From Arthrobacter sp. SLBN-100 (GTDB lineage Bacteria > Actinomycetota > Actinomycetes > Actinomycetales > Micrococcaceae): a stretch of DNA of 64,000 nucleotides. Every line of letters begins with the position of its first letter. Within the stretch, counting starts at the first letter, position 1. The notes below the pieces were generated by a model. That model made no database searches, was not told where the DNA came from, and saw only the letters and a list, made by a program, of their open reading frames with translations. This document shows, one piece after another, positions 244 to 9,811 of the stretch. Made by a program: the position numbers and the translations under genes. The DNA lies in NCBI RefSeq assembly GCF_006715305.1, contig NZ_VFMY01000001.1, positions 3,596,001 through 3,660,000 of the forward strand. Reading direction: 5' to 3'.

Positions 244-1100
244 CACCCCAAGCCAATCGAGTACCTGCCCTGGTGGAGGAGATGCTCCTCGACGCCGGCC
301 ATCCGGAGGATGAGAGGCTCCGCGCCACCCTCCTGGCGCTGGGATACCTGGCATCACTGCCCGCTCCCGCCCCTTCCGGCGAACTGGCCGCACTGCTGGC
401 CGCGTCCGGGGACGAGCTGCAGCAGCGGCGCCGGTTCCGCCGTCACCGTCCCACTGTTGTGGGACTGGCCGTGATCGCCGGGATGGGCCTGGGCATCGGC
501 GGCGTCGCCGCCACGTCTGGTGGCTCCACCCCTGGTGCCAGCGCGTCCATCCAGCAGCTGCTTGAGGACTGGGGGCCGGACTGGACCATCGCCTCGGGGG
601 TGGTATCGGCGCTGGCGCCCTACGGTCCACCTGCCGGCTATGGGGAGCTGCGGGACCTGGTTTCCACTGATGACCCCGCCGGGACCGGCGTTGCCGGAAA
701 CGGTGATATCCGCCTCCTTCGCGGCCCGGCGGGGGACCGGGCTCCGGCGTGCGGTCTGCAAAATCACGACGCCGGAGCGGCGACCAGCGGATGTGTGCCA
801 GGGACTTCCGGTGCCACGGGGGACAACGCCGGCACCAGTAGGGACAAGGAAGGGGCCAGTTCCCCGTCCGCGCCGGAGGGGACGCCGGGCCTACCGGGCG
901 GGGCAGGGACAGAGGATCCTTCCGGGACGCCAGGCGCGGGAACACCGGCGTCCGGCGTGGAAGCACCAGGCTCTGCAGGGCAAAAGACGGCTGCCCCCAC
1001 GGGCGCCCCCGACAAGCAGGGCCAGCCGCCGTGGGCAGGCCCGGGAACCGGCCAGAAGGCCATTCCCCGGGCCCTATGGCTGGCCACGATCAACCGGTAG
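240..1100 (+). CDS. Single-pass membrane protein, possible anti-sigma factor
   Basis: The protein has 286 residues. Residues 1-65 are cytoplasmic-like and helical, an RRRFRRHR basic stretch follows, one membrane segment spans about 72-92, and the outer part is long and rich in Gly, Pro, Ser and Thr (about 190-270). No zinc-binding HxxxCxxC anti-sigma motif is visible. The anti-sigma role is inferred only from the ATGA overlap with the sigma gene and the N-in, C-out topology. The low-complexity outer domain may be a wall-spanning linker. I recognise no named family. Confidence 0.65.
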   Translation: MTPQANRVPALVEEMLLDAGHPEDERLRATLLALGYLASLPAPAPSGELAALLAASGDELQQRRRFRRHRPTVVGLAVIAGMGLGIGGVAATSGGSTPGASASIQQLLEDWGPDWTIASGVVSALAPYGPPAGYGELRDLVSTDDPAGTGVAGNGDIRLLRGPAGDRAPACGLQNHDAGAATSGCVPGTSGATGDNAGTSRDKEGASSPSAPEGTPGLPGGAGTEDPSGTPGAGTPASGVEAPGSAGQKTAAPTGAPDKQGQPPWAGPGTGQKAIPRALWLATINR

Positions 1101-1109
1101 GCGGAACCG

Positions 1110-1604
1110 TCAGGCCGTGACCTGGCGCTTGGAGGAAATCACCCCGGTGTCGAAGCCGGCCAGGTGAAGTCCGCCGTGGAAGCGTGCATGCTCGATCTTC
1201 ACGCACCGGTCCATCACTACATTCAGGCCGGCAGCTTCCGCGCCTGCGGCCACACCCTCGTGCCAGGACCCCAGCTGCAGCCAGAGGGTTTTCGCCCCTG
1301 CGGCCACGGCCTCGTCCAGCACATCCGGAAGGTCGTCGTGCTTGCGGAACACGTCAACGATGTCCGGGCTTTCCGGCAGGTCCGCGAGGGAGGCGTAGCT
1401 GGGCTGGCCCAGGATCTCCTTGACCACCGGGTTCACGAAGTACACCTTGTAGCGGGTGGAGGACAACAGGTACGTGGCCACAAAGTAGCTGGCCCGCGAC
1501 GGCTTGTCGGAGGCACCCACAATGGCAATGGATTTCGCTTGCCGGAGCAGGTTCAGGCGCTCGGGGGCCGCCGGCCCGGACCAGGTGCGCTGGGCGGTGC
1601 TCAT
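1110..1604 (-). CDS. CoA-binding domain protein (YccU-like), end of sulfur operon
   Basis: This 164-residue protein is a single Rossmann-type CoA_binding_2 domain. The glycine motif SIAIVGASDKPSR is near residue 23, followed by VYFVNP, DIVDVFR and AGAKTLWLQLG. The ATG at 1604 overlaps the metY stop by 4 nt (ATGA), which fixes the start and places it last in the operon. Small CoA-binding proteins are often next to O-acetylhomoserine sulfhydrylase genes; their biochemical role is not established. It is a paralogue of the gene at 9386-9811, at the other end of the operon. Confidence 0.85.
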   Translation of the reverse strand: MSTAQRTWSGPAAPERLNLLRQAKSIAIVGASDKPSRASYFVATYLLSSTRYKVYFVNPVVKEILGQPSYASLADLPESPDIVDVFRKHDDLPDVLDEAVAAGAKTLWLQLGSWHEGVAAGAEAAGLNVVMDRCVKIEHARFHGGLHLAGFDTGVISSKRQVTA

Positions 1605-2953
1605 GCGTGTGCTCCGATCGTGCAGGCGTCTGCGGGTTCCGTGCGGGCGACGGCATCTTCCGCCGCCACGTTCGTCGCTTCTGTGAGCGCCTGGTCGAGG
1701 TCCCACAGGATGTCCTCGATGTCCTCCAGGCCCACGGAAATGCGGACCAGGTCCTCCGGCACGCCGGCTGACTCGAGCTGGGCGGGGCTGAGCTGCTGAT
1801 GGGTGGTGCTGCCCGGGTGGATCACCAGGGTGCGGGAATCACCCACGTTGGCCAGGTGTGAGGCCAGCTGGAGGGACTCGATGAACTTCTGGCCCGCAGC
1901 GCGCCCGCCCTTCACGCCGAAGGAGAAGACCGATCCAGGGCCCAGCGGCAGGTACTTCCGTGCCCGCTTGAAGTGCGGGTGGGAGGGCAGGCCGGAGTAG
2001 TTCACGTAAGCCACGCGGTCATCGTTTTCCAGCCACTCGGCCACGGCCTTCGCGTTCTTCAGGTGCTCGTCCAGCCGCTGCGGAAGGGTTTCCACGCCCT
2101 GCAGCAGCTGGAAGGCGGACTGCGGGGAGAGCGCCGGGCCGATGTCGCGCAGCTGTTCGCAGCGGAGCTTGGTCAGGAAGCCGTACTCGCCAAAGTTGCC
2201 CCACCAGGAGACGTTGCCGTAGGAGGCAACCGGTTCGGTCATGGTGGGGAACTTGCCGTTGCCCCAGTTGAACCGGCCGCTTTCCACGATCACGCCACCC
2301 AGGGTGGTTCCGTGCCCGCCAAGGAATTTGGTGGCCGAGTGGATCACGATGTCCGCGCCGTGTTCGATGGGCCGCACGAGGTACGGTGTACTCAAGGTGG
2401 CATCCACCACCAGGGGGATGCCGGCGTCGTGCGCCACCTTGGCCAGGGCCTCAAGGTCCTGGACCTCCGACGACGGGTTGGCCACCACCTCGACGAAGAT
2501 CGCCTTGGTGTTCTCCCGGACCGCCGCCGCGTAGTCTGCAGGGTCGGTGCCGGGGACGAACGTGGTGTCTACGCCGAAGCGGCGCAGGGTCACGTCCAGC
2601 TGGGTCACCGTGCCGCCGTAGAGCTGGGAGGCTGCCACGATGTGGTCGCCTGCCTGGGTCAGCGCGGCGAAAGTGATGAACTCGGCAGCCATGCCCGACG
2701 ACGTCGCGACAGCTCCGATGCCGCCCTCCAGCGAGGCGATGCGCTCTTCGAACGCTGCCACGGTGGGGTTGCCGATGCGGGAGTAGATGTTGCCGTACTT
2801 TTGCAGTGCGAACAGGTTGGCGGCGTCCTGGGTGTCCTTGAACACGAAGGACGTTGTCTGGTAGATGGGTACGGCACGGGCGCCGTGTTCGGCGTCGGGG
2901 GTGCCGCCGGCATGCAGGGCGCGGGTGCGGAAACCGAAAGTGCGGTCAGCCAT
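1601..2953 (-). CDS. metY: O-acetylhomoserine sulfhydrylase / aminocarboxypropyltransferase
   Basis: This 450-residue PLP enzyme of the Cys/Met metabolism family makes homocysteine from O-acetylhomoserine and sulfide, or methionine from methanethiol. The PLP lysine lies in HSATKFLGGHG, and the N-terminal FGFRTRALHAGG and YGNIYSRIGNPT motifs are typical. Length fits MetY rather than the shorter MetB/MetC. The start codon shares one base with the stop of the sfnG-like gene, so it is co-transcribed with the sulfur uptake genes and probably follows the upstream SAM riboswitch. The last ~25 residues are a variable tail. Confidence 0.93.
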   Translation of the reverse strand: MADRTFGFRTRALHAGGTPDAEHGARAVPIYQTTSFVFKDTQDAANLFALQKYGNIYSRIGNPTVAAFEERIASLEGGIGAVATSSGMAAEFITFAALTQAGDHIVAASQLYGGTVTQLDVTLRRFGVDTTFVPGTDPADYAAAVRENTKAIFVEVVANPSSEVQDLEALAKVAHDAGIPLVVDATLSTPYLVRPIEHGADIVIHSATKFLGGHGTTLGGVIVESGRFNWGNGKFPTMTEPVASYGNVSWWGNFGEYGFLTKLRCEQLRDIGPALSPQSAFQLLQGVETLPQRLDEHLKNAKAVAEWLENDDRVAYVNYSGLPSHPHFKRARKYLPLGPGSVFSFGVKGGRAAGQKFIESLQLASHLANVGDSRTLVIHPGSTTHQQLSPAQLESAGVPEDLVRISVGLEDIEDILWDLDQALTEATNVAAEDAVARTEPADACTIGAHA

Positions 2954-4158
2954 TAGACAGTCACCAGCCCGGTGGTTGAGCCTGTCGAAACCGCGGGAGT
3001 GCCGGACAAGTCCAGTTCGGTGCCGTTCTTCCGGGCGAGGTCTGCTTCAAGTTCCCGGACGATGGGCAGGACCTCCTGGCCGAACGCCGCCACCTCCTCC
3101 TGGAAGTGCAGGTAGCAGGTCAGGAACAGGTTCACGCCGAGTTTCTTGTACTCCACGATGCGTTCGGCGATCTGTTCAGGGGTGCCGATCAGCTGGGTCT
3201 TGAAGCCGTCGTTGTACTGGATCAGGTCCTCGAAGGTGGAATCTGCCCACATGCCCTTGCCGTCCTTGGTGGAGGCGCCGGCTTCCTGGACGGCGTCCCG
3301 GAATCCCTGGACGGCAGGCTTGTGTGCCTTCTCGACGATCTCGCGGAGCGTGTCCCGGGCTTCCTTCTCGGAATCGCGGGCGATGACGAAACCGTTCAAG
3401 CCGAAGCGGGGTGCCGGGAGGGCGCCTTCGGTGCGGCGGGTTTCGCCGGCCGCGGCCACGACCCCGGCGATGTTCTCCTTGAAGCCTTCCAGGTCCTTGC
3501 CGTTGGAGAAGTACCAGTCCGCAACGCGGCCCGCGGTGGCCTGCGCCGCCGTCGAGTTTCCGCCGAAGAAGATCTCGGGGTGGGCGCGCCCGGGCACGTC
3601 AATGGGGGCGGGGTTCAGGGTGAAATCGGTGATGTTGTAGTACTTGCCGGACTGGCTGTATTCCTGCTCGGTCCACAGGCCGCGGAGGACCTTGATGAAC
3701 TCCTCGGTGCGGACATAGCGTTCGTCATGCTCCAGCCATTCCAGGCCGAAGTTGGTGAACTCGTTCTTGAGCCAGCCGGAGACGATGTTGACGGCGGCAC
3801 GCCCGTTGGAGATGTGGTCGGCGGTGATGATGTACTTGGCCAGCACGCCGGGGTGCCACATGCCCGGGTGGACTGCGGCGATGACCTTCAGCCGCTCGGT
3901 AGCGGCCAGCAGCGCCAGGCTGAAGGACGTGGCCTCATGCTGCTTGTCCGCCCCATACGAAGCGGCGTAGCGGGTCTGGGTCAGGGCGTACTCGAAGCCG
4001 GAGTTCTCCGCGATCCGGGCCAGCTTCTTGTTGTAGTCGAAGTCCCACCCGGTCCGCTGTTCGATGGTGGAGACCACCAGTCCGCCGGAGACGTTCGGGA
4101 CCCAGTACGCGAACTTCAGCGGTTCGGAGAGCCGGGCAACGCTGCTGATGTCATTCAT
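2953..4158 (-). CDS. sfnG: SfnG-like dimethylsulfone monooxygenase (LLM flavin-dependent)
   Basis: This 401-residue member of the luciferase-like monooxygenase family is predicted to use FMNH2 and O2 to cleave dimethylsulfone to methanesulfinate, or to act on a related organosulfur compound. Family features include KFAYWVPNVSGGLVV at the N-terminus, AAVNIVSGW, the WLEHDERYVRTEEF block and STFEDLIQYNDGFKTQLIG near the C-terminus; these fit SfnG better than SsuD. The ATG at 4158 is chosen because homology starts there; upstream codons belong to acs. The C-terminal tail contains VSTGSTTG, which is a translated dispersed DNA repeat. No FMN reductase gene is nearby. Substrate specificity is an inference. 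Confidence 0.82.
   Translation of the reverse strand: MNDISSVARLSEPLKFAYWVPNVSGGLVVSTIEQRTGWDFDYNKKLARIAENSGFEYALTQTRYAASYGADKQHEATSFSLALLAATERLKVIAAVHPGMWHPGVLAKYIITADHISNGRAAVNIVSGWLKNEFTNFGLEWLEHDERYVRTEEFIKVLRGLWTEQEYSQSGKYYNITDFTLNPAPIDVPGRAHPEIFFGGNSTAAQATAGRVADWYFSNGKDLEGFKENIAGVVAAAGETRRTEGALPAPRFGLNGFVIARDSEKEARDTLREIVEKAHKPAVQGFRDAVQEAGASTKDGKGMWADSTFEDLIQYNDGFKTQLIGTPEQIAERIVEYKKLGVNLFLTCYLHFQEEVAAFGQEVLPIVRELEADLARKNGTELDLSGTPAVSTGSTTGLVTV
2971..2992. repeat. Dispersed short repeat, copy 1 (in the sfnG tail)
   Basis: A 22-bp element containing GTTTCGACAGGCTCAACCAC on the minus strand. It lies inside the last codons of the sfnG-like gene and is read as VSTGSTTG. An identical copy is at 4442-4463 and a shortened one at 4421-4436. 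Confidence 0.8.
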
Positions 4159-4168
4159 GATTGTTCCT

Positions 4169-6163
4169 TTACTTTTGTCCGTTGACGTGCGGTGCCGGTA
4201 CGGTTTTGACGTAGTCGCGCACGGCGCCCTGGATGCCGGCGATGGCCGGCTCGTTTTGGAGCGAGGTAGTGTCGCCGAGGGTGGTTCCCTCGAACAGTTG
4301 GGTGAGCAGCCGGCGCATGATCTTGCCGCTGCGGGTCTTGGGGACATCGGGAACCACAACGACGTCGCGCGGCTTGGCGATCGGGCCGATCTCCTTCGCC
4401 ACGTGGTTGCGGAGGTCCTCGGTGGTTGAGCCTGTCCGGCCGGTGGTTGAGCCTGTCGAAACCCCCGCCTTCAGGACCACGAAGGCGACGACGGCGTGCC
4501 CGGTCTTCGGGTCGGCGACCGGACAGACGCCGGCCTCCACGACGTCCGGGTGCGAAACCAGGGCGGATTCGATCTCGATGGTGGACAGCAGGTGGCCGGA
4601 GACGTTCAGGGTGTCGTCCACCCGTCCCAGGATCCAGATGTCGCCGTCGGAGTCGTACTTGGCGCCGTCGCCGGCCAGGAACCAGCCCTGGTCCGCGTAC
4701 TTGCTCCAATAGGAATCGAAGTAGCGGCGCGGGTTGCCCCAGACAGTGCGCGCGATGGCGGGCCCCGGGGAGTCAACCACGATATTTCCCTGGACGCCCG
4801 GCGGAACGGTACTGCCGCCGTCGTCCACGATCCTTGTGCTGACGCCCGGCAGCGGGCGCGCCGCGCACCCGGGCTTGAACTCGGTGTCCGTCGGCGCGGG
4901 GGAGAGGATGGTGGCGCCGGTCTCGGACTGCCACCACGTGTCCACCACCGGGGCGGTGCCGGCGCCGACGTTCTCCCGCAGCCAGCGCCAGGCCTCCGGG
5001 TTGACGGCCTCGCCCACCGTGCCGAGCAGGCGGATGGAGGAGAGGTCGCAGGTGTCCGGGACGCCGTCCGGGAACCAGCCCATGAGGGAACGGACCAGCG
5101 TGGGCGCGGTGTAGTACTGGGTCACGCCGTAGCGTTCGATGATCTCGAAGTGCCGGCCCGGGTGCGGGGTGTTGGGCGTCCCCTCGAAGATCACCTGGGT
5201 CACGCCGTTGGACAGCGGCCCGTAGATTTCGTAGGTGTGCGCGGTGACCCAGGCGAGGTCAGCGGTGCACCAGTGCACGTCTTTGTCGCGCAGCGCCGGA
5301 TCAGGATTGCTGAACAGGTGCTCAAAGCTCCACGAGGCCTGCGTCAGGTAGCCGCCGGAGGTGTGCACCAGGCCCTTCGGCTTGCCGGTGGTGCCGGAGG
5401 TGTACATGATGAACAGGGGAGTCTCGGCGTCGAACGCTTCCGGCTCGTGCACCTCGGCAGCCTGCCCGACGGCGTCATGCCACCAGACGTCGCGGCCTTC
5501 GGTCATGGGGACGGTTGCCAGGTCCGCTGCCGGGGTGGTGCGGTTGACCACCAGGACGTGCTCGATCGAATTGTCGCCGGAGACGGCAGCGTCCGCGTTG
5601 TCTTTCACGGGAACGGCCACGCCGCGGCGGAACTGGCCGTCCGTGGTGACCAGCAGCTTGGCGCCGGTGTCCTCCACCCGGAACTTCAGTGCTTCGGCCG
5701 AGAAGCCGCCGAACACCAGGGAGTGGATGGCACCGATGCGTGCCACGGCCAGCGTGATGATGATGGTTTCGGGGATGACCGGCAGGTAGATGACCACGCG
5801 GTCGCCCTTGCCGATGCCCAGGGCCAGGAGCGCGTTGGCCGCCTTGGACACCTCGCGCTGGAGTTCGGCGTAGGTGATGGACCGGCGGTCGCCGGGCTCG
5901 CCTTCGAAATGAAGGGCCACTTTGGCGCCGCGGCCGGCGGCGACATGGCGGTCCACGCAGTTGGCGGCCACGTTGAGCTTGCCGCCCTCAAACCAGCTGA
6001 TGCCCGGGCCGCGGCCGGCCTCCGGATCCGCCGGAACCCAGCGGTGCCCGGTATGCCAGGGGGTGTCCCACTCCAGGCGCAGTGCCTGCTGCTCCCAGAA
6101 GGCGACGTTGTCCGGGTGCACGCCGGCGTTCAGGTCCAGCGTTTCTGTGGTGCTCAGGCCCAT
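4169..6163 (-). CDS. Acetyl-CoA synthetase-like acyl-CoA ligase
   Basis: This 664-residue AMP-forming ligase activates acetate or propionate to the CoA ester. Motifs in order: the phosphate-binding MYTSGTTGKPKGLVHTSGG, the adenylate motif VDTWWQSETGA, the hinge GRVDDTLNVSGH and the C-terminal KTRSGKIMRR with the catalytic, acetylatable lysine. An insertion of about 14 residues (VSTGSTTGRTGSTT) sits in the mobile C-terminal domain just before EDLRNHVAKEIG and is translated from two copies of a dispersed repeat. The gene overlaps the upstream permease gene by 10 nt and is followed by sfnG after 10 nt, so it belongs to the sulfur operon. It may supply acetyl-CoA for O-acetylhomoserine, but this is inference. 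It could also be a propionyl- or sulfo-acyl ligase. Confidence 0.88.
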   Translation of the reverse strand: MGLSTTETLDLNAGVHPDNVAFWEQQALRLEWDTPWHTGHRWVPADPEAGRGPGISWFEGGKLNVAANCVDRHVAAGRGAKVALHFEGEPGDRRSITYAELQREVSKAANALLALGIGKGDRVVIYLPVIPETIIITLAVARIGAIHSLVFGGFSAEALKFRVEDTGAKLLVTTDGQFRRGVAVPVKDNADAAVSGDNSIEHVLVVNRTTPAADLATVPMTEGRDVWWHDAVGQAAEVHEPEAFDAETPLFIMYTSGTTGKPKGLVHTSGGYLTQASWSFEHLFSNPDPALRDKDVHWCTADLAWVTAHTYEIYGPLSNGVTQVIFEGTPNTPHPGRHFEIIERYGVTQYYTAPTLVRSLMGWFPDGVPDTCDLSSIRLLGTVGEAVNPEAWRWLRENVGAGTAPVVDTWWQSETGATILSPAPTDTEFKPGCAARPLPGVSTRIVDDGGSTVPPGVQGNIVVDSPGPAIARTVWGNPRRYFDSYWSKYADQGWFLAGDGAKYDSDGDIWILGRVDDTLNVSGHLLSTIEIESALVSHPDVVEAGVCPVADPKTGHAVVAFVVLKAGVSTGSTTGRTGSTTEDLRNHVAKEIGPIAKPRDVVVVPDVPKTRSGKIMRRLLTQLFEGTTLGDTTSLQNEPAIAGIQGAVRDYVKTVPAPHVNGQK
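4421..4463. repeat. Dispersed short repeat, copies 2 and 3, inside the acyl-CoA ligase gene
   Basis: Bases 4442-4463 are identical to 2971-2992. Bases 4421-4436 repeat its first 16 bases, separated by CCGGC. Together they add VSTGSTTG and TGSTT in frame to the ligase. Confidence 0.8.
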
Positions 6164-7056
6164 CGTTTCACCGCCCATTTCTCGGCCAGGCCCAACAGGG
6201 CGTCGGTCATTTTTCCAATCACGGCCAGCATCACAATGGCCAGGAACAGCCGGTCGGTGCGCCCGTTGTTCTGTGAATCCATCAGGAGGAACCCCAGTCC
6301 CATCGAAGAGGCGATGAGTTCCGCTGCCACCAGGAAGAGCCAGGCTTGGGCGAGCGCCAGCCGCAGTCCGGAAAAGACGGCGGGAACGACCGCGGGAAGC
6401 TGCACCGTGGTCAGCAGCCTGACGCCCTTGAGCCCAAAGGCGCGGGCTGCCTCCACCAGGTTCCGGTCCACATGGCGCAGCGCCAGGGACACGGTGGTGA
6501 ACACGGGGAAGAACGCGCCGATGATGATGAGGGTTACCTTGGAGTCTTCGCCGATCTTCAGCCACAGAATCAGGAGCGGCACCCACGCCAGGGACGGAAC
6601 TGCACGCAGCGCCCCGATGGTGGGGGCCAGGAGGGTGTCCGCGATTTTGGACAGGCCCACGGTGGCGCCCAGGACCAGGCCCAGGGCTGCGCCCGCCAGG
6701 AAGCCGATCAGGACCCGCTGGGTGGAGATCGCGATGTGCGTGCCGAGCTCACCGCGTTCCAGCAGCTCGCCTGCAGCTTCCAGCACCATGGCCGGCGGCG
6801 GCAGCTGCACCACCGTGAACACGTGGCTGGAGGAGGCAAGCTGCCAGGCAGCGAGCAGGGCGGCCGGGATGATCAAGCCAAGGGGCAGACGCGCCCAGTT
6901 CCTGGAGCGGACTCCGGCGGGAGACCATCCCTGTGCCGGAGCGGGTGCCTGACCGGCGCCCGCCTGGGCAGCGTCTGCCGTTGTTGCGGTAGCGGCTGCA
7001 GCGCGCTGGTCCGCAACCTTGTTGCCGGTGATGACCGGATCTCCGAGAGTGTTCAT
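6154..7056 (-). CDS. ssuC: Sulfonate-type ABC transporter permease
   Basis: This 300-residue inner-membrane protein of the SsuC/TauC family forms the channel of an aliphatic sulfonate or related importer. About six membrane segments can be seen. The cytoplasmic EAA loop, which docks on the ATPase, reads EAARAFGLKGVRLLTTVQLPA. The first ~50 residues form an Ala/Gln-rich cytoplasmic extension. The start shares a base with the stop of ssuA. Confidence 0.88.
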   Translation of the reverse strand: MNTLGDPVITGNKVADQRAAAATATTADAAQAGAGQAPAPAQGWSPAGVRSRNWARLPLGLIIPAALLAAWQLASSSHVFTVVQLPPPAMVLEAAGELLERGELGTHIAISTQRVLIGFLAGAALGLVLGATVGLSKIADTLLAPTIGALRAVPSLAWVPLLILWLKIGEDSKVTLIIIGAFFPVFTTVSLALRHVDRNLVEAARAFGLKGVRLLTTVQLPAVVPAVFSGLRLALAQAWLFLVAAELIASSMGLGFLLMDSQNNGRTDRLFLAIVMLAVIGKMTDALLGLAEKWAVKRWA

Positions 7057-8105
7057 CAGGAGTCCTTGATGGCTGACGGATCAGCCTTCTTCACCAGCGA
7101 GTCGTCGAGAAGGGAGCTCACGGCGTCGTCAACCTGCTGTTGCGTCTTGACGTCGCCGGTTTCCACGAAGGTGGGCCCGATCTTCTCCAATACTTTGCGC
7201 TGTGCTGCGCCCGGCGCGGGGTCCACGTCCAGGTTGCTGCGCTCCAGGACCACGGTCTTGGCCACGGCCAGGTCCAGGCCGGCAACGCTGGCCAGGATCT
7301 GGGCTGTCTGGTCCGGGTTCGCTGCTGCCCACGCCCGGGCCTTTTCGTAGGCGTTCACCACGGCCTGGGCCAGTTCCGGCTTGTCCTTGAGGAACGATTC
7401 GGTGGCGTTGAGGAAGCCGTAGGTGTTGAAGTCGAGGTTCCGGTAGAAAAGCCTGGCTCCCTTCTGCTCGGCACCGGCCATGATCGGATCAAGGCCGGAC
7501 CAGGCCTGGACGGATCCGTTTTCCAGGGCCGTGCGGCCGTCGGCGTGCTGCAGGTTCTGCACCGTTACATCGCCGGGCTTCAACCCCGCCTCCTCCAGGG
7601 CCTGCAACAGGAAGAAGTAGGGGTCCGTGCCCTTGGTCGCCGCGACCGACTTGCCCTTGAGGTCCGCGACCGAGGCGATGTCGGATCCCGCCGGCGCCAC
7701 CAGGGCCGCCCATTCGGGTTGGGAGTAGATGTCGATGGTCTTGATGGGTGATCCGTTGGAGCGGGCCAGGAGGGCCGCGGAGCCAGCGGTGGAACCGACG
7801 TCGACAGCACCTGAGCGCAGGGCCTCATTGGCCTTGTTCGAGCCGGCTGACTGGACCCAGTTCACGGTGACGCCCTGGTCCTTGAGGCTGGCTTCCAGCC
7901 AGCCCTGGTCCTTGATGACCAGGCTGAGCGGGTTATAGGTGGCGAAATCGATGTTCAGGGTGCCGCCCTTGCTGCTGCCGGCAGCAGCAGCGCTGCCGGA
8001 GGAGCCTTCGCCTGCGACGCATCCGGTCAGTGCCAGGGCCGCTGAGGCGGCGAGGGCTGCTGCGCCAAGGACTGAACGGCGGGTGATGGGCAATGCGTGC
8101 GGCAT
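7056..8105 (-). CDS. ssuA: Sulfonate ABC transporter substrate-binding lipoprotein
   Basis: This 349-residue extracytoplasmic binding protein begins with a twin-arginine signal (TRRSVLGAAALAASAALALTGC) that ends in a lipobox, so it is probably exported folded and lipid-anchored at Cys28. The mature part shows the SsuA/ThiY-like fold: GGTLNIDFATYNPLSLVIK, GVTVNWVQSAGSNKANEALRSG, and DLKGKSVAATKGTDPYFFL. Neighbours ssuB and ssuC complete the importer. Aliphatic sulfonates are the default ligand of the family. Given the sfnG-like gene in the operon, the ligand may be another organosulfur compound. Confidence 0.88.
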   Translation of the reverse strand: MPHALPITRRSVLGAAALAASAALALTGCVAGEGSSGSAAAAGSSKGGTLNIDFATYNPLSLVIKDQGWLEASLKDQGVTVNWVQSAGSNKANEALRSGAVDVGSTAGSAALLARSNGSPIKTIDIYSQPEWAALVAPAGSDIASVADLKGKSVAATKGTDPYFFLLQALEEAGLKPGDVTVQNLQHADGRTALENGSVQAWSGLDPIMAGAEQKGARLFYRNLDFNTYGFLNATESFLKDKPELAQAVVNAYEKARAWAAANPDQTAQILASVAGLDLAVAKTVVLERSNLDVDPAPGAAQRKVLEKIGPTFVETGDVKTQQQVDDAVSSLLDDSLVKKADPSAIKDS

Positions 8106-8246
8106 GGGGTTCCTTTGAAAGCGGGGATGAATCGGTGTGGAGCAGGGGGAGGCCCAGGCCGGGGCCGTGGCAGGGCGTGAAGTCCGACGGCGGCCCGCGC
8201 CAACAGGGGCGGGTTACGGCATTGGGGGAGTGGGAGTCAGCACGGC

Positions 8247-9062
8247 CTAGTGCCCGTCAACGCCCAGAGTCTCCAGGAGCGAGCTGCGCATGAGGGCGAG
8301 TTCGGCGGAGGCGCGCTTGCGCGGGCGGTTGCCGGGTACCTCAACGGTCCTGACGATGGATGCGCCCTGTCCGGAGGCATGAGGGCCAAGCACGATGATG
8401 CGGTCCGCGAGCTGAAGGGCTTCGTCCACGTCGTGGGTGACCAGCAGGACGGTGGTGGGCTCTGCCTGGTGGATGTCCAGGAGCAGGTCCTGCATCTTGA
8501 TCCGGGTGAGGGCATCCAGGGCGCCGAAGGGCTCATCGAGCAGCAGGACGCCGGGGTTCCGGGCCAGTGCCCTTGCCAGTGACGTGCGCTGCGCCATGCC
8601 GCCCGAGACCTCGCGGGGCCGGTGCTTGGCAAAATTTTCCAGCCCCACGAGTTCCAGCAACCGGGCGACCTTGGCTTTGCCCTCTTTCGCGCTGCATCCG
8701 GCAGGCAGGCCGATGGCCACATTGGCCTGCAGGGTGTGCCAGGGCAGCAGCCGGGGTTCCTGGAAGGCGAAGGCGCACCGCGGATCAATGCCGTGCACGG
8801 TGGTGTCCTCGATGACTACGGAGCCGGAACTTGGGTAATCCAGGCCCGCTGCGGCGCGCAGGAGGGTGGACTTTCCGCAGCCGGACGGGCCCAGGATGGC
8901 GAGGACTTCGCCGGCTGCCACGTCAAAGGTCACGTCCCGCAGCACGGTGTGGGCGGCCGGACCGGTGCCGAACGTGCGGCGCAGGTTCCGGAAGGACACC
9001 GGGAGGGCGGGGGCGTGGGCGGGGCCTGCCTCGGCAGGAAGGGGCGACAAAACTGCGGTCAT
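8247..9062 (-). CDS. ssuB: Sulfonate ABC transporter ATP-binding protein
   Basis: This 271-residue ATPase energises the importer. Walker A (GPSGCGKST) is near residue 59, the signature REVSGGMAQRTSLARAL is near 150, Walker B GVLLLDEPFGALD near 170 and the switch histidine in THDVDEAL. It is the first gene of the operon and lies 141 bp before ssuA. Its GGAG ribosome binding site (9070-9073) overlaps the 3' strand of riboswitch helix P1, so it is probably controlled directly by S-adenosylmethionine. Confidence 0.9.
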   Translation of the reverse strand: MTAVLSPLPAEAGPAHAPALPVSFRNLRRTFGTGPAAHTVLRDVTFDVAAGEVLAILGPSGCGKSTLLRAAAGLDYPSSGSVVIEDTTVHGIDPRCAFAFQEPRLLPWHTLQANVAIGLPAGCSAKEGKAKVARLLELVGLENFAKHRPREVSGGMAQRTSLARALARNPGVLLLDEPFGALDALTRIKMQDLLLDIHQAEPTTVLLVTHDVDEALQLADRIIVLGPHASGQGASIVRTVEVPGNRPRKRASAELALMRSSLLETLGVDGH

Positions 9063-9065
9063 AGG

Positions 9066-9246
9066 ATCACTCCATCGGTCCTGGCAGTAGCACCCTACGG
9101 AGTCAGCCTCTCGCCGGAGTGGTCAGTTCCGGGTACCCGTGGCTGGAATCCTTGCTATCGCCGGGGCGGTTGGGAAGCGTCCGGCGACCAGGGTTGCTGC
9201 GGCTTCATCGATCCAGGTCTCTCGGCCGCTCGGGATGGTCAACTAC
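9066..9246 (-). ncRNA. SAM-I (S-box) riboswitch upstream of ssuB
   Basis: Read on the minus strand, the leader has the SAM-I core: a helix GCGGC/GCCGC enclosing CGAGAGACCTGGATCGATGA, followed by AGCAACC, and later GGTGCTACTGCCAGGACC. These match the conserved kink-turn/pseudoknot side, the SAM-binding P3 base and J3/4-P4 of the class. P1 is formed by CCATC (9234-9238) and GATGG (9072-9076). P3 is enlarged, with an extra CGCCGG/CCGGCG hairpin. GGAG at 9070-9073 overlaps P1, which suggests translational rather than terminator-based control, and no U-tract is present. The downstream genes are all for sulfur acquisition. Confidence 0.85.
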
Positions 9247-9385
9247 CACTACACCTGAGGCGCATCCTCGGGACCAAATTTGCCTAACTGGGAGCGTAAT
9301 ATTCGTTCACGGGGGCTTCTCCCGGGCCTGAGCAGTCACTTATTCGAGCATTCGCTGTTTGCGGTAGCGGCTGTACGCTTGCTGC

Positions 9386-9811
9386 ATGGTCCACGTCAAC
9401 GATCCGGAAGTCATCGGGCGCCTCATGCGAAACAAAGGGCGGTGGGCCATAGTGGGCCTCACCACGAATGAGTGGCGCGCAGCGTACGACACCTCGCTGT
9501 TTATCAGGGACCGGCTCGGCATGGAGATCATCCCCGTCAACCTGCCCGGTGACCCCGTCCACGGCGAAGCCGGGTACCGCACCCTCGGCGACATTCCCGC
9601 GGAAAAGCGGCCCATCGACGTCGTGGACTGCTTTGTGAACTCGCAGAAGGTGGGGGCTGTGGTGGACCAGGCCATCGCTGTGGGGGCCAAAGCGGTGTGG
9701 CTGCAGTTGGGGGTCATCGACGAGGCAGCGGCGGAACGCGCCAAGGCGGCGGGGATCGACGTGGTGATGAACGCCTGCCCTGCCCAGCTCGCCTGGAAGT
9801 ACAACCTCTGA
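9386..9811 (+). CDS. CoA-binding domain protein, divergent from the sulfur operon
   Basis: This 141-residue Rossmann-fold protein belongs to the CoA_binding_2 family (WAIVGLTTNEWRAAY, EIIPVNLPGDP, PIDVVDCFVNS, VGAKAVWLQLGV). It is a distant paralogue of the protein at 1110-1604 and differs in lacking the GAS triplet of the glycine motif. It is transcribed away from the riboswitch, so it has its own promoter in the 9247-9385 interval. Function unknown. Confidence 0.82.
   Translation: MVHVNDPEVIGRLMRNKGRWAIVGLTTNEWRAAYDTSLFIRDRLGMEIIPVNLPGDPVHGEAGYRTLGDIPAEKRPIDVVDCFVNSQKVGAVVDQAIAVGAKAVWLQLGVIDEAAAERAKAAGIDVVMNACPAQLAWKYNL

Follow-up and report, generated by a model that had tools for sequence, protein, structure and literature searches.

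A P4-less SAM-I-type riboswitch candidate with a folded P3 arm at the ribosome-binding site of an ssuB-like gene in Arthrobacter

SAM-I (S-box, RF00162) riboswitches in which the ribosome-binding site lies within the 3' side of P1 have already been described, and the available text of PMC2258182 (Barrick & Breaker, 2007) reports that, across riboswitch classes, such direct translation attenuation is most frequent in Actinobacteria and Cyanobacteria; the mechanism as such is therefore known. A P4 hairpin is among the marks that set SAM-I apart from SAM-IV in the accessible part of PMC7270179. According to the portion of PMC6890682 at hand, SAM-IV (RF00634) lacks P4 but possesses P5 and PK-2, and SAM-I/IV (RF01725) lacks PK-1 and has P4; SAM-I/IV is also described as devoid of the P2 internal loop (PMC2864571, in excerpt). 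The SAM-I riboswitch of Xanthomonas campestris controls translation through a structure that includes P4 and a downstream hairpin platform, which also senses initiator tRNA (PMC7270179, same part).

The window analysed here is a 64,000-nucleotide stretch of the Arthrobacter sp. SLBN-100 genome. An original prediction, made from the sequence, had proposed that the minus-strand leader of an ssuB gene is a SAM-I riboswitch whose P1 helix contains the ribosome-binding site. We find that the leader is very probably a good candidate of this known regulatory class, with an unusual architecture composed of the following elements:

9072-9238, minus strand: SAM-I-like aptamer, from P1 to P1, without P4 (RF00162, 38.2 bits over 9069-9241; conserved in L002-L031, the best 30 of the genus matches)
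9234-9238, minus strand: P1 5' strand CCAUC, read from the sequence; pairs with GAUGG
9199-9229, minus strand: P2, with a kink-turn-like internal loop and L2 (RF00162 alignment)
9213-9217, minus strand: L2 strand CCUGG of PK-1, complementary to CCAGG 9084-9080
9090-9197, minus strand: enlarged P3, a three-way-junction domain of P3, P3a and P3b (consensus and covariation of 43 distinct sequences; model R1)
9157-9188, minus strand: P3a hairpin GUCGCCGG/CCGGCGAU with a C-rich loop (CCC 9174-9172); two-sided changes in 6/8 pairs
9104-9145, minus strand: P3b arm, CAGCC/GGCUG and inner CCGGA/UCCGG; two-sided changes in 4/6 and 3/4 pairs, respectively
9080-9084, minus strand: J3/4 strand CCAGG of PK-1, read from the sequence and the same in L002-L031
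9072-9076, minus strand: P1 3' strand GAUGG, whose last GG is the first GG of the Shine-Dalgarno site (sequence)
9070-9073, minus strand: GGAG, Shine-Dalgarno-like site, 7 nt before the ATG at 9062 (sequence)

The RF00162 model aligned end to end with 9241-9069 of the minus strand at an E-value of 2.9e-7 (401 bases against all 4227 Rfam families). The covariance check that had been suggested thus returned a low E-value, but the 38.2 bits fell short of the family's gathering score of 44.4 bits, and a gathering-threshold Rfam scan of the window did not report the locus. A search of the organism's own genome with RF00162, in which only first-look candidates were scored, gave one other place and not the ssuB leader. 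In cmscan, which retains only the best member of a clan, RF00162 won over the SAM clan at this leader, and no other Rfam family scored on the minus strand of 9000-9400 at E ≤ 10.

The SAM-I core was recognized correctly in the original prediction: a closed P2 (GCGGC 9229-9225 / GCCGC 9203-9199), AGCAACC (9198-9192) and GGTGCTA (9094-9088) are all in place on the minus strand, and the alignment shows a P2 with a kink-turn-like internal loop together with PK-1 between L2 and J3/4. P1 comprises five pairs only, CCAUC/GAUGG. Positions named as ligand contacts or as highly conserved in SAM-I in the available part of PMC3764141 were mapped onto P1 next to the pocket, J1/2, P3 and J3/4. Present are A6/U7 (9236/9235) and G11/A12 (9231/9230) from P1 to J1/2, G43/C44/A45/C47 (9197/9196/9195/9193) and G56/U57/G58/C59 (9093-9090) in P3, A61 (9088) in J3/4, and A87/U88 (9075/9074) on the P1 3' side; U4 of that set is C here (9238). 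The SAM-contacting core of SAM-I (G11, C44, G58, U7 and A45) is accordingly found by mapping, and the ligand is predicted to be SAM.

P4 is absent. In the window, and alike in L002-L031, three bases separate CCAGG from the P1 strand that comes after it. The assignment to SAM-I therefore stands with respect to the type of aptamer, but without P4 the RNA is a SAM-I-like variant rather than a textbook case. It shares with SAM-I the core nucleotides, a P2 with internal loop, PK-1, the P3 motif and a P1 that runs into the Shine-Dalgarno site (PMC2258182, in the available text), and differs in having no P4, a three-way-junction arm in P3 and a sulfonate/sulfone gene run as its target. A SAM-clan core without P4 is common to SAM-IV (PMC6890682, as above), whose P1 is followed by P5 and PK-2, whereas here the start codon lies nine bases past P1; a PK-2 like that of SAM-IV was considered and rejected, there being no room for it ahead of the ATG. 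A search of the same genome with RF00634 at E ≤ 10, again with only first-look candidates scored, listed six places, all of them outside the window. Elsewhere in this genome there are four SAM-IV switches that exceed the cut-off (95-120 bits), at G000:C1 4487291, 4488888, 1273995 and 2578573, and the proteins downstream of three of them carry Abhydrolase_1, Aminotran_5 and DUF1737 matches. The SAM-clan core is likewise shared with SAM-I/IV, from which the window RNA differs by its P2 internal loop, its PK-1 and its lack of P4. With the Xanthomonas campestris riboswitch it would have SAM-I-type translational control in common (PMC7270179, in part), but it contains no separate platform.

RF00162 matches were present in 199 of 396 genomes of the phylum. 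Five of them, chosen for their short span and located outside the class of the window, lack P4 and score 73.9-81.4 bits, and Rfam's family therefore already holds P4-less members. P4 is present in ten RF00162 matches from one family of the window's class (L062-L071), which we take to be Streptomyces-like. A discussion of P4-less SAM-I-like RNAs was not found in the literature searched, which left most subscription journals outside its scope.

Relatives of the leader are widespread. Positions 9040-9270 matched (E ≤ 1e-3) in 113 of the 198 genomes of the genus, the organism's own included, with 85 genomes giving no match; in 47 matches, with E-values no higher than 2.7e-36, 183 or more of the 231 bases are covered. 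Such numbers are beyond chance. The core without P4 is kept in 30/30 of L002-L031. Within the family, the P2/L2 pattern was found in 216 of 295 genomes, representing 27 of the 32 genera, and the reversed control pattern had no match among the matches listed. A common 3' signature connects relatives from Rhodococcus, Nocardia, Amycolatopsis, Cellulomonas, Kocuria and others (at least 118 loci). Eighteen chosen from these were scanned with RF00162: 17 exceeded the gathering score at the place of the pattern (47.4-62.8 bits), and one, L145, had no match over that score there. The relatives were collected by exact patterns, and positions inside a pattern are no evidence; the J3/4 strand belonged to the search pattern, so the set provides no test of covariation in PK-1. 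The inner four bases of the P2 stem read CGGC/CCGC in 146/167 sequences and CGAC/TCGC in 17/167.

A separate element, CGAATATTACG or a close form of it, lies upstream of P1 in 27 of the 30 loci L002-L031 (window 9295-9305, minus strand), with mostly 58-68 nt from the start of the box to P1. The window contains one copy of it, and the genome as a whole also has one when up to one mismatch is allowed; it may be an operator or promoter that serves the divergent gene at 9386 as well.

P3 is enlarged, as had been proposed, and measures 108 nt (9197-9090); the RF00162 alignment places 86 bases where the model has 6. Forty-nine P3 regions (43 distinct) out of 161 were selected, each longer than 85 nt and ending in one of four 3' sequences; L017 (GCAATCC) and a further 16 P3 regions of more than 60 nt fell outside this set. 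The unconstrained RNAalifold consensus of the 43 sequences is a three-way junction formed by P3 (GCA-A-CCCUG/UAGGG-UGC), P3a and P3b, with a junction that reads ANCRAGG in 43/43 and a P3 stem that hardly varies. GGG 9138-9136 in P3b is a possible partner of the P3a loop CCC; 91% of cells pair in this contact, with no counted covariation. The structure used for counting was the consensus minus four predicted pairs, plus three loop-contact pairs added by hand. Paired cells amounted to 93.0% compared with 85.2% in shuffles, and cells changed on both sides to 104 compared with 39 (0/500 shuffles reach either value), but part of this contrast is built in, because shuffles lose relatedness and the structure was drawn from the consensus. 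Pairs with a two-sided change numbered 13 versus 9.8 in shuffles (12/500), and slid versions of the structure gave 13-29 two-sided cells. As far as the Rfam scan and the literature search show, a conserved three-way-junction arm in P3 is new.

Two variants were seen among related switches. In L224, L225, L226 and L211, SAM switches with the P3 arm, J3/4 reads GGTGCTCC, and the otherwise conserved A61 is C, possibly a change of fine structure or of ligand. In L017, L018 and L025 the same long-P3 switch stands directly before an acetate--CoA ligase-like gene in place of ssuB, and in L018 and L025 the P3b loop is altered.

The overlap of the P1 3' strand GATGG with GGAG is confirmed by the sequence. 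The spacing of nine bases that had been given to the ATG holds when counted from the end of GATGG; from GGAG to the ATG there are seven. Its generality was evaluated in 168 distinct P4-less switches, a set that left out rows without the core pattern, with less than 330 nt downstream, or identical to another. GATGG was inside the search pattern, so its conservation there proves nothing by itself, and the AG that continues it to GGAG is present in 138/168. The first long open frame starts within 12 nt of P1 in 100 of the switches, at 13-25 nt in 29, at 26-60 nt in 11 and beyond 60 nt in 28. Among the 100 closest starts, 88 lie at 5-12 nt and 12 were assigned at 1-3 nt; by eye, ten of these 12 show an ATG or GTG 8-12 nt past P1, and L097 and L164 do not. 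No terminator-like site was found on the minus strand of 1000-9500, and with the ATG so near P1 there is no room for a terminator between the two, in agreement with the proposal that none is needed. This arrangement, in which P1 takes up the ribosome-binding site in its 3' strand and no terminator follows, is that of direct translation attenuation.

Downstream of the leader lies the predicted set of organosulfur genes, including ssuB-like, ssuA, ssuC-like, sfnG and O-acetylhomoserine sulfhydrylase genes:

8247-9062, minus strand: ssuB-like ABC transporter ATPase (best NCBIfam family aliphatic sulfonate ATPase, 203.1 bits, below the curated cut-off of 395)
7056-8105, minus strand: SsuA-family substrate-binding protein (TIGR01728, 215.2 bits; cut-off 163.5)
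6154-7056, minus strand: SsuC-like permease (best match PRK11365, 179.2 bits, below the cut-off of 347)
4169-6586, minus strand: open reading frame with an acetate--CoA ligase-like protein, true start probably inside (NF001208, 812.5 bits; cut-off 657; residues 148-786)
2953-4359, minus strand: open reading frame with dimethylsulfone monooxygenase SfnG, true start probably inside (TIGR04021, 619.4 bits; cut-off 382.95; residues 81-439)
1601-2953, minus strand: O-acetylhomoserine sulfhydrylase-type enzyme (TIGR01326, 600.1 bits; cut-off 495.1)
1110-1706, minus strand: CoA_binding_2 protein (PF13380, 138.3 bits)

The ATPase and the permease are named by resemblance because their scores are below the curated cut-offs of their best families. 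The co-directional run from the ssuB-like gene to the CoA_binding_2 gene would form one transcript. CoA_binding_2 proteins bracket the run, the second being encoded at 9386-9811 on the plus strand, divergent from ssuB.

The best explanation for the observed aptamer match, conservation, covariation, P1 overlap and lack of terminator room is, we think likely, a SAM-responsive OFF switch that blocks translation directly through a P4-less SAM-I-type aptamer with a folded P3 arm. Plentiful SAM would stabilize P1, whose 3' strand would tie up the GG of the Shine-Dalgarno GGAG, and a compact RNA set against the start codon would leave the 30S subunit unable to load. When SAM falls, P1 would open and the genes for sulfonate/sulfone uptake and conversion towards methionine would be translated, with control presumably extending over the whole co-directional run. 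A run of genes for sulfur use fits repression by SAM.

An unlikely alternative is that the leader alternates between two folds, the aptamer and an anti-Shine-Dalgarno hairpin (ACUCCGU 9103-9097 / AUGGAGU 9075-9069; ACTCCGT/ATGGAGT in the DNA), such that the SAM-free state also hides the site and SAM might act as an ON signal or a further factor would open it. This helix is favored both by the free minimum-energy fold and by the whole-leader RNAalifold consensus. When the leader was folded with and without P1, as had been suggested, the pseudoknot-free model preferred the alternative helix, and the GG was paired in either case: the free fold has -65.5 kcal/mol with the Shine-Dalgarno site paired elsewhere, forcing the P2 and P3 domain gives -61.3 and adding P1 -58.8, and blocking the P1 5' strand leaves the GG unpaired with a probability of 0.01. 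These energy models include neither PK-1 nor SAM, which is why they leave accessibility undecided. With the modelled energies favoring the alternative helix, we infer, rather than read from the folding, that the site would be exposed when SAM is absent. There is also a precedent in the Xanthomonas platform, in which the Shine-Dalgarno site stays hidden when SAM is absent and uncharged initiator tRNA brings about the opening (PMC7270179, in part).

CTCC occurs in P3 in 45 of 72 distinct longer-P3 switches, compared with 27.2 in shuffles; the junction and the C-rich loop explain this excess, but anti-Shine-Dalgarno pairing would fit it too. Among short-P3 switches whose P1 overlaps the site in the same way (18 distinct), no excess is seen (3 versus 2.1 in shuffles), and the conserved UCCGU is already accounted for by the three-way junction. 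For these two reasons, pairing of the P3 3' strand with the Shine-Dalgarno site is not regarded as the main mechanism, and physiologically there would be little point in SAM inducing genes for sulfur scavenging. Anti-Shine-Dalgarno pairing through the P3b loop CACTCC was rejected separately, as by eye it is not kept in L021, L022 and L024.

In GC-rich bacteria, mRNA that is not being translated is accessible to Rho. Control might therefore operate mainly on transcription, by Rho-dependent termination after the translation block or by RNA decay, which we consider quite unlikely; the lack of a terminator-like site and of room between P1 and the ATG speaks against transcriptional control, although neither excludes Rho.

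The arm within P3 could also act as a second sensor, or as a docking site, with a sulfur metabolite, a tRNA or a protein as its partner; two inputs would then act through the one P1 that contains the ribosome site, which we regard as improbable. Model R1 of the arm, built with the SAM-core ends of P3 included, matched strongly at 25 places (E-values of at most 3.9e-8), spread over four genera and 21 of 149 genomes in the family, and all 25 lie inside a SAM core, as its inclusion of the core ends would favor. By eye, the protein encoded next begins like the window's SsuB in 21 cases, is transporter-like in one and is a lipoprotein in three. In the wider class, R1 gave only weak matches apart from the organism's own genome (4/296 genomes at E ≤ 0.1, own included). 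Stand-alone copies of the arm were sought and numbered 0 of the 25 strong matches in the 149 family genomes, a result weakened by the SAM-core ends of R1. Three weak family matches (L221, L222 and L227; E 0.78-0.86) and three weak class matches (29-30.7 bits) were discarded, each without the P4-less signature and coding-like by eye. In L081, from another genome of the genus, an ssuB-like leader has a short P3, and the arm is for this reason plainly read as a structural extension.

A change of ligand appears highly improbable. Spermidine is the ligand of rare SAM-I variants in which J1/2 and the P3 internal loop are altered (PMC10853860, in the available part), and J1/2 positions 9-10 are CC in the window and in 116/167 of the group, but G11, C44, A45, G58 and U7 are kept by mapping and the downstream genes are sulfur genes. 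Chance resemblance without any riboswitch, to which the score below gathering and a folding energy of the 216-nt leader close to that of shuffles (z 0.81) might point, has next to no likelihood, being already refuted by the comparative data (E 2.9e-7, matches in 113/198 genomes, covariation).

Further switches were noted in this genome and elsewhere. Another P4-less SAM-I-like switch (45.9 bits) lies 4 kb beyond the left end of the window and precedes a protein that by eye looks like a member of the methionine synthase family. In 12 loci picked by eye (L094, L122, L126, L135, L142, L144, L153, L162, L179, L192, L199 and L130), from Amycolatopsis, Allokutzneria, Blastococcus, Pseudonocardia and Plantactinospora, a small open reading frame of the RRRxVDxCR type, often with Cys codons, follows at once after a P4-less SAM switch. 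It presumably resembles a cysteine leader peptide, and several of these loci have an ABC-ATPase-like gene, MetN-like by eye, further downstream; two sulfur signals may be stacked there. Pairs of SAM-switch patterns on opposite strands less than 300 bases apart were found at G635:C44:100341/100633, G658:C57:12805/13098, G649:C1:3117867/3118145 and G594:C10:151923/152219, as if each side of one intergenic region bore a switch.

The locus extends predicted translational control by SAM to the use of sulfonates and sulfones, and provides an example of a SAM switch that scores under Rfam's threshold. P4 seems to be dispensable for its SAM-I-type aptamer, which also seems to accommodate a large conserved fold within the ligand-holding helix. 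The leader would be a nested two-input riboswitch if the P3 arm were to sense a signal.
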